From positions 1 to 33,541 of IMG/VR virus record IMGVR_UViG_3300042544_001840: DNA of 33,541 bases, one strand, 5' to 3'. Under the pieces are notes generated by a model. The model saw nothing but the letters and a program-made list of their open reading frames with translations. It ran no database searches and was not told where the DNA came from. This DNA is from a virus. The translations under genes and the position numbers were made by a program. Numbering within the stretch: the stretch's first letter is position 1; each line of letters starts with the position of its first letter. Of the stretch, positions 5,550 to 33,347 are shown in pieces.

Positions 5550-6386
5550 CTAGTAGTAAATATAAAGGTCGCCAGTAGCAGTTCCGCTTGGTGGTGTTCC
5601 AGTTGTATTATAAAATATTTTATTTAAATTAGCTGTATCTGTTCCATTAGAATATGCTACGGAAACTCCTGCTGGGCCTGTTGGTCCAGATGGTCCTGAA
5701 GGACCTGTTGCACCTGATGGACCTGATGGTCCAGATGGTCCTGAAGGACCTGTTGCACCTGATGGACCTGATGGTCCAGGAACTGTAGAATTTTCTCCCG
5801 CTGGTCCACTTGATCCTACTGGACCTGTTGGTCCAGACGGTCCTTGAATACCTTGAATACCTTGAGGACCTGATGGACCTGTAGCACCTGCTGGGCCCGT
5901 TGGTCCCGTTGGTCCAGGAACTACTGAGTCTGCTCCAGAAGATCCTTGTGGGCCTGTTGGTCCTGTTGAACCAGTTGGTCCTGTTGGGCCTTGAATATTT
6001 CCAACATTTTCCCAAGATGTTGTACTAACTGACCAAACATATAACGTTCCGCCAATTAAATATCCGTCTCCAGCATTTCCTGTTGGATGTGCTGTTTGTA
6101 ATTCACCTAATGAATTATAAGTTCCTAAAATTGTTACTGCTGTTCCTTGAGGTCCAGATGGACCTGTTGCTCCTGTTGGGCCTGTAGGCCCTGTTGCTCC
6201 AGTTACTCCTTGAGGACCTGATGGGCCAGTGGCACCAGATGGCCCTGAAGGGCCTGTGGGGCCCGTAGGGCCAGGATGTGTCTCTAAGTACGTATCTACG
6301 TCTTCAGCAAGGTACTCCAGGTCTCTAGGGACGTCTGGAGTGTTTGCATAATCTGGATATCGAAAACCTTTACCTGTGGTTGCCAT
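5550..6386 (-). CDS. Collagen-like tail fibre
   Basis: The 278-residue protein has a short N-terminal anchor (residues 1-38, [20 protein letters not shown]), then Gly-X-Y triplets from about residue 38 to 240, broken near 82-130 by a small globular insert ([20 protein letters not shown], then [11 protein letters not shown]). It ends with a C-terminal cap ([16 protein letters not shown] and on). The triplets are nearly all GPT, GPS, GAT or GPQ, so the stalk offers many Thr/Ser side chains. A triple-helical trimer is expected. A GT4 glycosyltransferase lies 24 bp upstream in the same orientation. The ATG has no ribosome site, and an extended -10 box lies 6 nt before it. Confidence 0.9.
5656..5790 (-). 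repeat. Tandem Gly-X-Y coding repeats
   Basis: The plus strand repeats ggacctgatggtccagatgg-type units, including two near-identical blocks around 5690-5730 and 5735-5775. They encode [13 protein letters not shown] triplets and are expected to be prone to in-frame recombination. Confidence 0.7.
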
Positions 6387-7736: not shown

Positions 7737-8021
7737 TTATATAAAGTGTTTGATTATTGCGATGGAAGCCAGGATGCTCCACCCAATGTTAAAGTAAATA
7801 ATTGTTGGTAATGTTTTAATGGTAGAAGTAAAAATAAGAGCCAGGCTAGAAGCCAGAGCAAATATAAATAGCCACCAAAATTGTTTACCGAATAAAAGTC
7901 CTGGAAATATAATCATAAGCTTTGTAGAAAATGCCCAAAACTCAATTATATTAGTTTTATTCCAGTATTTTTTTTCAAATAACTGGGTTGTTATTTCCCA
8001 TATGTCTTTAGGCTTTATCAT
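7737..8021 (-). CDS. Small membrane protein next to halogenase
   Basis: The 94-residue product has a hydrophilic N-terminus with charged and aromatic residues (MIKPKDIWEITTQLFEKKYW) and then about three hydrophobic spans: residues about 35-50, 48-67 (FWWLFIFALASSLALIF) and 72-92 (TIIYFNIGWSILASIAII). It should sit in the inner membrane. Its start codon lies inside the end of the halogenase gene (14-nt overlap), so the two are translated together. No family is recognised; an accessory role for the halogenase or the nearby glycosyltransferases is only inferred from position. Confidence 0.72.
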   Translation of the reverse strand: MIKPKDIWEITTQLFEKKYWNKTNIIEFWAFSTKLMIIFPGLLFGKQFWWLFIFALASSLALIFTSTIKTLPTIIYFNIGWSILASIAIIKHFI

Positions 8022-9621
8022 ATTTATCTTTCAAATATTGATAAAGTGTAGGAGCATCTTCTGCTGCCTTTTTCCATTTAAGCTGAACATACTCTGTACT
8101 TTTAACAAAGTTTTCAACATATTCTTTTATATAACTTTGCTTATAAATTGGATGAGGGAGAAGGTCTTGTTGGCTGTATAAAAAGAAATTCATTCCAGTA
8201 GCAACACAGTTCATTCCGCTTGTAAGTTCATGAGCGCCATTTACCATTTTTAATTTTGCAAGCTCAAAAAATCCAGAAGTCTGAAGATAATCTAAGTCTT
8301 GCATATTTGAAAATGTTTTTGTAGATATATCTTTCCAATATTGTGTATCTGTTCTGTGGCTTAATGCATAATGAAGAGATACGAAATGTGCAAAAGAATC
8401 GAATAGTATCTTACAAGAAACGTTGTACACGTCTTTATCCCATTGAGAAACTGGTCCTCTATTTATTGTATCTACTAGTTTTAATAAAAACTGATGAATT
8501 GTAAACAATCCGTTACTTTCTAAAGGCTCAATAAATCCAGCAGATAAACCTATTGCGACAACATTTTTTACAAACAATCTTTCCGCTAAACCTATTCTCA
8601 TGTTAATATCTTTAAACTCTAGAGTATCCACTTCTTCTTGTGTTCTAGGAGATACCATTTTGTCTGACATTAAATAATTTTTAAACTCTTGTTTTGCATC
8701 TTCTGGAGATATATATTTATCGCTATACACATACCCAGTTCCTAATCTAGACCATAAAGGAATATTCCATGCCCACCCATTTCCAAGAGCTGTGCAATTA
8801 GTAAATGGCTCTAATTCTTTTTCTTTATCTTTGTACTGTAGCTGTGCTGCCCAAGCTTTATTATTTGGAAGAATATGATCATATGAATTAAATGGTTCTT
8901 TTAATGCATCACCTAACAGAAGGCTCTTCCATCCAGTACAATCGACATATAAATCAGAATAAATAATGTCTCCATTATCTAAAACTAAATTAGATACCCC
9001 GTTTTCATCTGTGTTAACAGTAACAACTTCTCCCTGTATATGAATAACTCCCTTTGGTTTTGCGTATCTGTCTCTTAGCCAAGCACCAAATTTTGTTGCA
9101 TCAAAATGGTAGACTACGTTTGTCTCTGGATAGTAATTGTCGAACTCTCCTGATTCATTTTTGCTAAATTTATTATTTTCAATTAATGGCATTGTTGGCC
9201 AATATGTCCTGCAGTAATCTTGAACTGGAGTTTCTGGAAATACTCCCTTTTTATAATGCCACATCTTTAATATTTCTTGTGGTGAAATTTGTGTATTATT
9301 TGGACCTAACTGACCAGTAAACGGCAATCCAAACGGGTAATGAAATGATCCAGAATCTTTATCATAAAAATCGGTAAACTTAATACTCATTTTGTATGAA
9401 GCATCAGTATATTTCATAAAATCATCTTCATCTATCTCTAATGCATTTACCCAAGTTTTAAGTCCGCCAATTGTACTTTCTCCAACACCAACTACGGGTA
9501 TGTTGGGACTTTCAATTACAACAATTTCTTTTTCAGGATAAAACTTTATAAGTGTAGCTGCTGTCATCCATCCAGCAGATCCGCCTCCAACAATTACAAC
9601 CTTGTTTAAATTTTTTATCAT
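8008..9621 (-). CDS. FAD-dependent tryptophan-halogenase-type enzyme
   Basis: The 537-residue protein has the diagnostic features of flavin-dependent halogenases. The FAD-binding GGGSAGWMTA is at residues 12-21. Lys77 in SYKMSIKF aligns with the active-site lysine of PrnA and RebH (Lys79). WAWNIP at 283-288 is the WxWxIP motif that separates halogenases from mono-oxygenases. EPLES at 365-369 places a Glu-Ser pair where PrnA has Glu346-Ser347. The family uses FADH2, O2 and halide to make a halogenating agent; a reductase partner would have to come from the host. A related viral halogenase (VirX1, cyanophage Syn10) is known to act on varied aromatics. The substrate here is unknown. It has an AGAAAG-type ribosome site and lies in an operon between a GT-A glycosyltransferase and a membrane protein. 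Confidence 0.92.
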   Translation of the reverse strand: MIKNLNKVVIVGGGSAGWMTAATLIKFYPEKEIVVIESPNIPVVGVGESTIGGLKTWVNALEIDEDDFMKYTDASYKMSIKFTDFYDKDSGSFHYPFGLPFTGQLGPNNTQISPQEILKMWHYKKGVFPETPVQDYCRTYWPTMPLIENNKFSKNESGEFDNYYPETNVVYHFDATKFGAWLRDRYAKPKGVIHIQGEVVTVNTDENGVSNLVLDNGDIIYSDLYVDCTGWKSLLLGDALKEPFNSYDHILPNNKAWAAQLQYKDKEKELEPFTNCTALGNGWAWNIPLWSRLGTGYVYSDKYISPEDAKQEFKNYLMSDKMVSPRTQEEVDTLEFKDINMRIGLAERLFVKNVVAIGLSAGFIEPLESNGLFTIHQFLLKLVDTINRGPVSQWDKDVYNVSCKILFDSFAHFVSLHYALSHRTDTQYWKDISTKTFSNMQDLDYLQTSGFFELAKLKMVNGAHELTSGMNCVATGMNFFLYSQQDLLPHPIYKQSYIKEYVENFVKSTEYVQLKWKKAAEDAPTLYQYLKDKYDKA

Positions 9622-20892: not shown

Positions 20893-22896
20893 TTACCATG
20901 CTTCCATGATATTCATAATATCTGATCCTTCACTTCCTCCTGCTGGCCCTGCTGGCCCTGATGGACCTGATGGGCCTGATGGTCCGAGATCGGAAACTGT
21001 TATAGAACCAGCCATTGATGAGTGGAATTGACATGCATAATAAAGTTGTGGTGCATCATAAGGAACTTCAAATATAATTGTTCCGTTATCTGTTCCGCCA
21101 TTTGTAACGCCAGTGCTGTAAATATTTCCTGAACTATAAGCGCCTGAAACTGTTTGTATCCAAAATGGGTGGCCAGAAGCATTTACGTTAATTATATATC
21201 TGTGTCCACGAATAAAAGAAAGAGTTGGATTATTAGATCCATTTATTACATAAGCTCCGCTGCCAGAGTTTGTTACGGTAAGAGTTATTCCTCCAGGTAG
21301 TCCAGTTGGACCTGTTGGTCCTGTTGGGCCTATGTCACCTTGTGGACCTGTTGGTCCTGTCGGACCTGCGTCACCTTGTGGACCTGTTGGTCCTGTTGGA
21401 CCTATGTCACCTTGTGGACCTGTTGGTCCTGTTGGACCAGGAACTGTGCTATCTGCACCTGTTGGTCCTGTCGGACCTGCGTCACCTTGTGGACCTGTTG
21501 GTCCTGTCGGACCTGCGTCACCTTGTGGACCTGATGGTCCTGATGGACCTGATGGGCCTGCAACTGTGCTATCTGCACCTGATGGGCCTGTAGGGCCTGT
21601 TGGTCCTTTAGGTATCCATATTTCCCATTGTCCATTACTTACATAATCAATTGGATCGCCCAGTTGTCCACTAGCTTTAGCAAGATACAGTTGTCCGTCT
21701 GAACCTCTTACTACTGCAATATCTGGTACGTAACCAGATAATGGATTATAATTCCCTAAATAATAAATTCCAAATGCGTCACCAGCTGCTCCCGTTGGAC
21801 CAATATCGCCTTGTGGCCCTGTTGGTCCTGTTGGACCTATAAGACTACTTGTGTCAATTTGTTCTAATGGAATTTTGCCACTAAGATCTAAAGATGCTAC
21901 TCCTCCAGCAGTTCCTTTTTCTGTAATAGGAATATATCCAGAATCTATAGTGTCTCCAAGAGTTGAAATTGCAGTGTCCGTATAATCATTTGCATCTGAA
22001 ATATCTCCCATAGTTGCAATTTGATTTGATGCAACAGAGGCATCATTTAAAAATTCTCCATTGTCTCCAGCGATAACTATTTTTTCAGAGCTTACTAACA
22101 AGAGGTCGCTTTCTGTAGATGAATTATTGTGAAGTCCATTTACGGCAACTGAACCCATTGCTGGACCAGACAGAACACCATCTGCTCCAAACTGCCAATA
22201 ATTTTCCCATTCTTCTTCATGGCTAAATATATGTGGTTCTCCTGCAACAAATGAAGCTGGTGCTCCATTTAGGTTTGCTGTGATAGTCTGTAGACCAGCA
22301 CTTGGTGAGTCCTGTGTAATTGAATCAACAGTTACTATATCTCCGCCTACATAAAATAATGTATCCCCTATATAAATATTTGCTGTATTACTTGTTACAA
22401 AAGAAGTGTTACTTATTGTATTTTGATTTGTATATGTGTTAATAACTGTATTTGGTCTTGTGCTAACACTTACAGTTCTTCCGCCATCTGAGACACGAAC
22501 ATTGTTTCTTTCTCCGCCAAGAAATAGGTCTGCAGTAGAAGCATCTTGTTCCCCACCTGCACGAATATGAATATGGTTAGGTGCAGTTGGATCAATTATT
22601 AAATATTGATCTGAAGTAATGTCTCCATCTGGAACAAGCTCGATAGTTCCTAGATTGCTACCATCACCAGATGCTGTGCCCGCACCAATGATTTGAATTC
22701 CATCAAATGTTATGTCTCCAGTGTCTCCGCCACCATCAGATGTAAGAAAGGGGAGATTTTGCCAAAGACTGGTACCATTTCCTGCTTTTAATTTATTAAG
22801 AGTTGTGTCTAATCCAAGTTCTCCAATTTGAAGTGGAGTTGTAGAGCTATTCCACTGTTCTGTGGTTCCTCTTTTTGTTTTTATTACTACGCTCAT
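20893..22896 (-). CDS. Collagen-like fibre with cupredoxin-like C-terminal domain
   Basis: The 667-residue protein has a fibre N-terminus ([32 protein letters not shown]), a beta-rich shaft to about 320, a short collagen block near 355, and a long [11 protein letters not shown] stalk at about 435-533. A domain at 535-637 follows, then a last Gly-X-Y stretch and the tail [10 protein letters not shown]. The 535-637 domain ends in [17 protein letters not shown] and contains GHPFWIQT. His576, Cys622, His625 and Met628 are placed like type-1 copper ligands, so a cupredoxin fold is likely; metal binding is inferred. The ATG overlaps the TGA of the upstream gene, with a perfect GGAGG inside its last codons. 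Confidence 0.87.
21306..21570 (-). repeat. 36-bp tandem repeats encoding the collagen stalk
   Basis: The plus strand repeats blocks of the form ggacctgttggtcctgt...gtcaccttgt, each encoding [12 protein letters not shown] or its A variant, in about six copies broken once by an ADSTVP insert. The copies are nearly identical, so slippage or recombination is expected. Confidence 0.8.
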
Positions 22897-29959: not shown

Positions 29960-29988
29960 TTGACTTAGTATCTATAATATTTTACAAT
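29960..29988 (+). promoter_or_regulatory. Promoter of a predicted small RNA
   Basis: TTGACT (29960-29965), a 17-nt spacer and TACAAT (29983-29988). No ribosome site or open frame of useful size lies between it and the terminator about 60 nt downstream. Confidence 0.65.
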
Positions 29989-29994
29989 TAATGA

Positions 29995-30082
29995 GTACTG
30001 GTCGTAGCATCCCACATGTTCCCAGTACATGATCGTAAGATCAGCAAAACCCAATCGGATCCGCCTCTGATTGGGTTTTGTA
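29995..30082 (+). ncRNA. Predicted stand-alone structured small RNA
   Basis: The expected transcription start (about 29995) coincides with the first base of a hairpin: GTACTGG (29995-30001) pairs with CCAGTAC (30022-30028). Next come a second hairpin, TGATC-GTAA-GATCA (30030-30043, a GNRA tetraloop), and the terminator stem. The three hairpins fill nearly the whole transcript of about 88 nt, which codes for nothing convincing. Its function is unknown. It could be a regulatory RNA, or merely a boundary structure between convergent units. Confidence 0.55.
30046..30079. terminator. Strong bidirectional terminator
   Basis: AAAACCCAATC (30046-30056) and GATTGGGTTTT (30069-30079) form an 11-bp perfect stem with a 12-nt loop. 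The U-rich arm serves the plus strand, and the symmetric A/T ends also serve the leftward tRNA unit. Confidence 0.85.
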
Positions 30083-30092
30083 CTTTATGTTG

Positions 30093-30165
30093 TCCCCTCG
30101 ACACGATTTGAACGTGTGACGCAGGCCTTAGAAGAGCCTCGCTCTATCCCCTGAGCTACGAAGGG
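30093..30165 (-). tRNA. tRNA-Arg (UCU)
   Basis: A 73-nt cloverleaf. The acceptor is CCCTTCG/CGAGGGG with one G-U pair, the D arm GCTC/GAGC, and the anticodon stem AGGCT/GGCCT with loop CTTCTAA (anticodon TCT). The T arm is ACACG-TTCAAAT-CGTGT and the discriminator is A. CCA is not encoded. It reads AGA codons, which AT-rich phage genes use often. Confidence 0.92.
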
Positions 30166-33019: not shown

Positions 33020-33207
33020 TGATGACTAAATGGGATACAATTCAGGCAGATGTAGCAGATGCTTATCGCCACTTAGATGATGTAGAAGAAATAGATAATG
33101 AAGATGAAGATGTATTCGGTTTCTCTAAGGCTATTGAGATAGACCACTTAACAGATGAGCAACTAGACATGATTAGCAACATGTTCGAAACTAGAGAGGC
33201 GGACTAA
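33019..33207 (+). CDS. Small acidic protein
   Basis: The 62-residue product is highly acidic and helical (ADAYRHLDDVEEIDNEDEDV, DHLTDEQLDMISNMFETREA). Two ATG codons in a row (33019 and 33022) could serve as start; the first overlaps the upstream stop. Highly acidic small phage proteins sometimes mimic DNA, but nothing specific supports that here. Confidence 0.7.
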   Translation: MMTKWDTIQADVADAYRHLDDVEEIDNEDEDVFGFSKAIEIDHLTDEQLDMISNMFETREAD

Positions 33208-33209
33208 TA

Positions 33210-33347
33210 ATGGAAATAGAAATAACAGGAGAGTATCTATATATAAACTCTGATTTCTTTGGGCTATATGCTAATGTCCCTCTCTATTTGCTTATTGGTA
33301 TCCCCGCTATTATCTACTCAATTAAAATGATGAGAAAGTATAACTAA
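33210..33347 (+). CDS. 45-residue membrane micro-protein
   Basis: ATG at 33210 to TAA at 33345-33347. The product has a polar start (MEIEITGEYLYINSDFFG), one hydrophobic helix (VPLYLLIGIPAIIYSI) and a basic end (KMMRKYN), so a single-span membrane protein is expected with the basic end in the cytoplasm. Its stop overlaps the next ATG (TAATG). Confidence 0.62.
   Translation: MEIEITGEYLYINSDFFGLYANVPLYLLIGIPAIIYSIKMMRKYN

Follow-up and report, generated by a model that had tools for sequence, protein, structure and literature searches.

A conserved small RNA family of actinophage-like freshwater phages, with a terminator loop complementary to ribosome-binding sites of phage replication genes

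The small-RNA locus lies at positions 29960-30082 of the freshwater phage contig IMGVR_UViG_3300042544_001840, which was analysed over its whole length of 33,541 nt (hereafter the window). It sits between a lysozyme unit and a convergent tRNA unit, as a first-pass annotation made from the sequence alone had correctly placed it. The features of the locus, and one candidate target elsewhere in the window, are as follows:

29960-29988, plus strand: sigma-70-type promoter, TTGACT - 17 nt - TACAAT (from sequence and from conservation in relatives)
29995-30085, plus strand: predicted sRNA transcript of about 88-91 nt, start and end deduced from the promoter and terminator positions
29995-30028, plus strand: hairpin 1, with a 7-bp outer stem and a conserved GGUYGUAGCAUCCCAC internal/apical region (fold, covariation)
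30030-30043, plus strand: hairpin 2, with a GUAA tetraloop (fold, covariation)
30044-30081, plus strand: terminator hairpin, 16 bp (fold; stem replaced or covarying in relatives, loop constant)
30057-30067, plus strand: conserved loop GGAUCCGCCUC, the proposed seed (unchanged in relatives)
30059-30066, plus strand: seed core AUCCGCCU (loop comparison)
30060-30065, plus strand: hexaloop UCCGCC (fold)
30092-30165, minus strand: tRNA-Arg(TCT), downstream of the sRNA (ARAGORN)
33195-33203, plus strand: candidate target AGAGGCGGA in the ribosome-binding site (RBS) of ORF 33210-33347, a 9-nt perfect complement of UCCGCCUCU

The tRNA-Arg(TCT) was called by ARAGORN and not by Rfam at the gathering threshold, which called the other three tRNAs.

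The previously annotated promoter matches 10 of 12 consensus positions. Its score alone is not above chance (12 such sites in the region vs 10.3 expected), yet its conservation with a 17-nt spacer in relatives, as TTGAC(T/A)...TATTTTATA(C/A)T, counts against a chance match: it was found at the matching position in 103 distinct relatives, the spacer was 17 nt in all representatives listed, and in this comparison a recognisable -35 element was absent from a handful of divergent copies. Folding of the segment gave a minimum free energy of -40.1 kcal/mol against -21.2 ± 3.1 kcal/mol for shuffled sequences (z = -6.1; 0 of 200 shuffles as stable), and reproduced the three back-to-back hairpins, one with a GUAA tetraloop, that had been described before. 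The terminator hairpin of that description also stands, with its stem corrected from 11 bp to 16 bp, of which 13 are strong; its U-tract is moderate only (GUUUUGUACUUU). Across aligned relatives, length differences are not multiples of 3 and start codons are not conserved, and the RNA holds no conserved ORF.

Relatives were gathered through the neighbouring SLT-type lysozyme, which yielded 80 IMG/VR loci. The RNA was found at the same position, behind short plus-strand ORFs of the lysis unit, in about 70 of these; locus lengths and match positions show that 10 of the 11 loci without it stop short of the site, and L066 was the sole lysozyme-selected locus that covers the site without an RNA match. 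Pattern scans with the terminator loop and with hairpin 1 extended the family to more than 100 contigs. In near-complete phage contigs the RNA is single-copy, with weak opposite-strand matches that reflect the palindromic terminator, and the covariance model matches the window at 29995-30091 with 99.3 bits. A blastn search of the RNA against 50,697 phage records (sequenced isolates) returned no match, and a pattern search of genome contigs returned 4 matches, all lacking the remainder of the RNA. Among the Streptomyces phages Daubenski and TunaTartare and the tectivirus WheeHeim, the covariance model found no convincing copy (a single marginal match in TunaTartare, 19.7 bits, E 0.017); Daubenski and TunaTartare (Stanwilliamsviridae) have RNR, dnaE and the last small ORF in common with the sRNA phages. 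No Rfam family matched the RNA at gathering or at E ≤ 10; the best sub-threshold match, ctRNA_pGA1 (17.6 bits, E 0.12-0.18), falls far from the gathering score of 45 and covers mostly the terminator helix, so that membership was ruled out. A WhiB-like protein, a marker of actinophages (PMC10202952), is encoded in 10 of 15 phage records, which makes freshwater Actinobacteria the most likely hosts. As judged from these comparisons, the RNA is a real, conserved and previously undescribed family in actinophage-like freshwater phages; the family and its conserved terminator-loop seed were found here and had no place in the first-pass annotation.

Two relatives carry additional copies or parts. In L154 the terminator hairpin and its conserved loop recur on their own, following another gene some 1 kb downstream of the sRNA. 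The 113,997-bp contig G022 (L444, L453) has the same sRNA at each end, which suggests terminal redundancy and a complete genome.

Compensatory changes in the stems of relatives, on which the earlier description had staked its claim of a structured RNA beforehand, are present. In a covariance-model alignment of 95 distinct copies, 94.2% of pair cells held standard pairs, 18 of the 31 pairs were changed on both sides, and 407 cells were doubly changed vs 107 ± 18 after shuffling; when the partners were slid by 1-3 columns, pairing fell to 33-44%. Since the alignment was fitted to the covariance model, these figures lean towards the model; the same compensatory changes can be seen directly in the raw MAFFT alignment, and RNAalifold independently recovered all three helices. 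Every pair of the outer stem of hairpin 1 was changed on both sides (7 of 7, with 99% of cells paired), as was every pair of hairpin 2 (5 of 5, 93.7% paired), whose stem varies freely under a GNRA, UUCG or similar tetraloop.

What lies downstream of the terminator varies among relatives, from convergent tRNAs to minus-strand HNH or other genes to plus-strand genes. A cis-acting leader would be expected to retain its downstream gene, and the variation in both kind and strand therefore points to a trans-acting RNA; a leader or riboswitch was rejected, there being no conserved same-strand downstream gene. Being nearly symmetrical, the hairpin could terminate the convergent tRNA unit of the window, which lends something to the idea of a mere bidirectional terminator between convergent units; a promoter and two covarying upstream hairpins are conserved along with it, however, and the downstream gene and strand differ, and we consider a leader, attenuator or bare terminator very improbable. 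Covariation and the non-conserved downstream context thus support the prediction of a stand-alone structured small RNA, and the comparisons support a trans-acting small RNA gene at this locus. The near-identical phages represented by the window and L003 are identical as far as the terminator and part exactly there, after 30082, a junction that seems to border a variable region containing tRNAs and HNH genes.

The terminator loop is the most conserved part of the RNA. GGAUCCGCCUC was invariant in 36 of 36 distinct lysozyme-gathered sequences, a set chosen without selecting on the loop. In L205 and L212 (found through hairpin 1) and L443 (found through dnaE) the flanks of AUCCGCCU vary and the core is kept. 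All 12 phages found through dnaE likewise retain the core, a set that is not fully independent because the searching model was built from the standard loop; in 3 of them the stem is wholly replaced (CCCCUGG...CCAGGGG). By eye, GGAUCCGCCUC may resemble the 16S 3' end, GGAUCACCUCC, AUCCGCCU a tRNA-Thr anticodon stem, and GGUYGAGC a tRNA D-arm.

Target prediction on phage mRNAs, which had been proposed as a check on the annotated RNA, showed that the complement of the loop is enriched in the RBS windows of sRNA-carrying phages. Across nine phage records, loop-complement runs of at least 7 nt occurred in the RBS windows of 23 of 1127 genes, vs a shuffled-loop mean of 1.5, and the hairpin 1 region used as a seed gave no enrichment of RBS complements in the same records. 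Among the 7-mers of the sRNA, UCCGCCU had the complement (AGGCGGA) commonest in RBS windows (32 vs 4.2). Composition-matched loop shuffles equalled the RBS total of the loop in 68 of 20,000 cases; of random genomic 11-mers, 7% matched as many RBSs, an effect of the A/G-richness of RBSs. In a replication set of four further sRNA-carrying phages, AGGCGGA was present in 12 RBS windows vs 1.3 expected, against 1 window vs about 1 expected in seven phages lacking the sRNA (Fisher p = 5.5e-5), though the sRNA-carrying phages form one clade and the motif counts are thus not independent. Other motifs were also enriched in sRNA-carrying phages, namely CGAAAG upstream of start codons (38 vs 2.9) and GATTGGG and ATGTGGG in RBS windows (12 and 9 vs about 1-2).

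Grouping by orthologue located GGCGGA in the RBS of the DnaE polymerase in 10 of 11 sRNA-carrying genomes, in two families of small proteins of unknown function (6 of 6, 5 of 5), in a 68-aa family (7 of 12) and in the DnaB-like helicase (4 of 11). A dedicated dnaE search of IMG/VR recovered GGCGGA at the RBS in 68 of 80 contigs and 36 of 45 distinct sites, one of the 45 having GGAGG. The motif lies in the tail of the upstream ORF or in a spacer behind differing ORFs, and its recurrence in such unrelated contexts and frames is not explained by protein coding. The dnaE RBS lacks it in nine other actinophages examined, all without a blastn match to the RNA (two were also searched with the model, without a convincing copy). 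Predicted pairing of the dnaE RBS reached -13 to -17 kcal/mol with the loop vs -6 to -9 kcal/mol with the anti-SD. The dnaE gene is not on the 33.5-kb contig, and the RBS of the contig's own RNR lacks the motif; its candidate target AGAGGCGGA sits 6 nt upstream of ORF 33210, with a predicted loop duplex of -17.9 kcal/mol. Some sRNA-carrying phages have other sequences at dnaE (GGAGGA in G010 and G032, GGTGGA in G024, GGTAGA in G026) and a loop with no matching change; among the copies found, no loop variant was accompanied by a matching target change, the loop being constant. A conserved RBS hexamer is in itself no rarity: in 11 of 46 gene clusters at least 80% of the members have one in common, in several cases canonical AGGAGG. 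GGCGGA might also be a weak SD that chance has favoured in this lineage.

We favour, with reasonable though limited confidence, a loop-seeded sRNA that represses translation of phage replication genes. A transcript some 90 nt long would end in the terminator hairpin, whose accessible loop (core AUCCGCCU) would act as the seed and pair with (A)GGCGGA in the RBSs of several phage mRNAs, foremost that of the DnaE DNA polymerase, sometimes that of the DnaB-like helicase, and those of several small families of unknown function. If the RNA is expressed and pairs in cells as predicted, this pairing would block ribosome entry, and the RNA would hold down or, depending on its timing, shut off the production of replication proteins; because the loop matches the RBSs of the phages' own replication genes, it is probably a brake on the replication machinery. 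We would put at about even chances the broader proposal of a lytic-phage regulon under one sRNA, in which the polymerase, the helicase and several small genes are held down in hosts presumed to be without Hfq, and the non-canonical GGCGGA is kept so that these genes stay under control.

A constant loop could have other causes. The core is the same across very diverse phages, which would fit a host target that changes slowly, and the host sRNAs 6C/B11 pair C-rich loops with many RBSs (PMC10470900), so that host mRNAs might be the main targets of a trans-acting sRNA, with the phage RBS matches secondary or coincidental. Such a reading is unlikely given that the complement is enriched at RBSs of the phages that carry the sRNA and not of non-carriers, and recurs at orthologous replication genes. 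Invariance of the loop with its closing pairs would also suit a protein-binding site (an RNA sponge or RNP) or a structural RNA with accidental RBS complementarity, and the conserved hairpin 1, which has no enriched RBS complement, may itself bind protein; the rarity of composition-matched shuffles with as many RBS matches (68 of 20,000) and the independent replication of the enrichment in four further sRNA-carrying phages make it quite unlikely that this accounts for the loop. Loop-loop homodimerisation through GGAUCC, which is palindromic and present in most copies, was rejected as extremely improbable, since the palindrome is not invariant: L205 (CGAUCCGCC), L212 (GAAUCCGCC) and G028 (AGAUCCGCC) break it and keep AUCCGCCU.

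Most known phage sRNAs come from temperate phages whose enterobacterial hosts carry Hfq. In Staphylococcus, RsaE and RNAIII use an exposed C-rich (UCCC) loop to seed pairing with Shine-Dalgarno regions without Hfq; an exposed C-rich loop is likewise the seed proposed here, although those RNAs differ in structure and hosts and act on bacterial genes. The C-rich loops of mycobacterial 6C/B11 pair with RBSs and repress genes, reportedly independently of RNA chaperones (PMC10470900), which makes chaperone-free action plausible for the phage RNA by analogy. Both are small structured RNAs of actinobacterial cells with a C-rich loop complementary to target RBSs (probable hosts and predicted complementarity in the phage case), but 6C/B11 has two loops with C runs, whereas the phage RNA has one UCCGCC terminator loop, with CCCAC in hairpin 1 and a GNRA/UUCG-like loop in hairpin 2, is phage-encoded and has phage replication genes as its predicted targets. 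The Rfam 6C covariance model gave no match at gathering, nor at E ≤ 10 on the locus, and membership was rejected on this ground and on the different loop arrangement; the best reading of the sequence evidence is that the RNA works like 6C/B11 without being a member. The nearest phage sRNA in theme is PreS of lambda, an Hfq-dependent trans-acting sRNA of about 88 nt that targets host dnaN and favours phage propagation (PMC12197685). PreS is similarly phage-encoded, of about 88 nt and directed at a DNA-replication gene, whereas the predicted target of the present RNA is the phage's own dnaE-type polymerase, which it would repress, and no sequence relation between the two is known. The sar RNA of P22 and OOP of lambda also repress phage genes by base pairing and are encoded opposite their targets (PMC12197685); the present RNA, predicted to repress phage genes in the same way, is encoded far from its predicted targets. 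If the proposed repression holds, these widespread uncultivated freshwater phages carry a large RNA family whose seed and target motif can both be read from sequence, and RNA control of a phage replication programme could be tested directly in them.

Two further kinds of gene in the window were recorded. A tryptophan halogenase (8008-9621, minus strand; PF04820, E 4e-100) lies among tail and glycosyltransferase genes and has relatives in several related phages. Two proteins with collagen-like GPT/GPS repeats (5550-6386 and 20893-22896, both minus strand), of which only that at 5550-6386 matches PF01391, are probably tail fibres.
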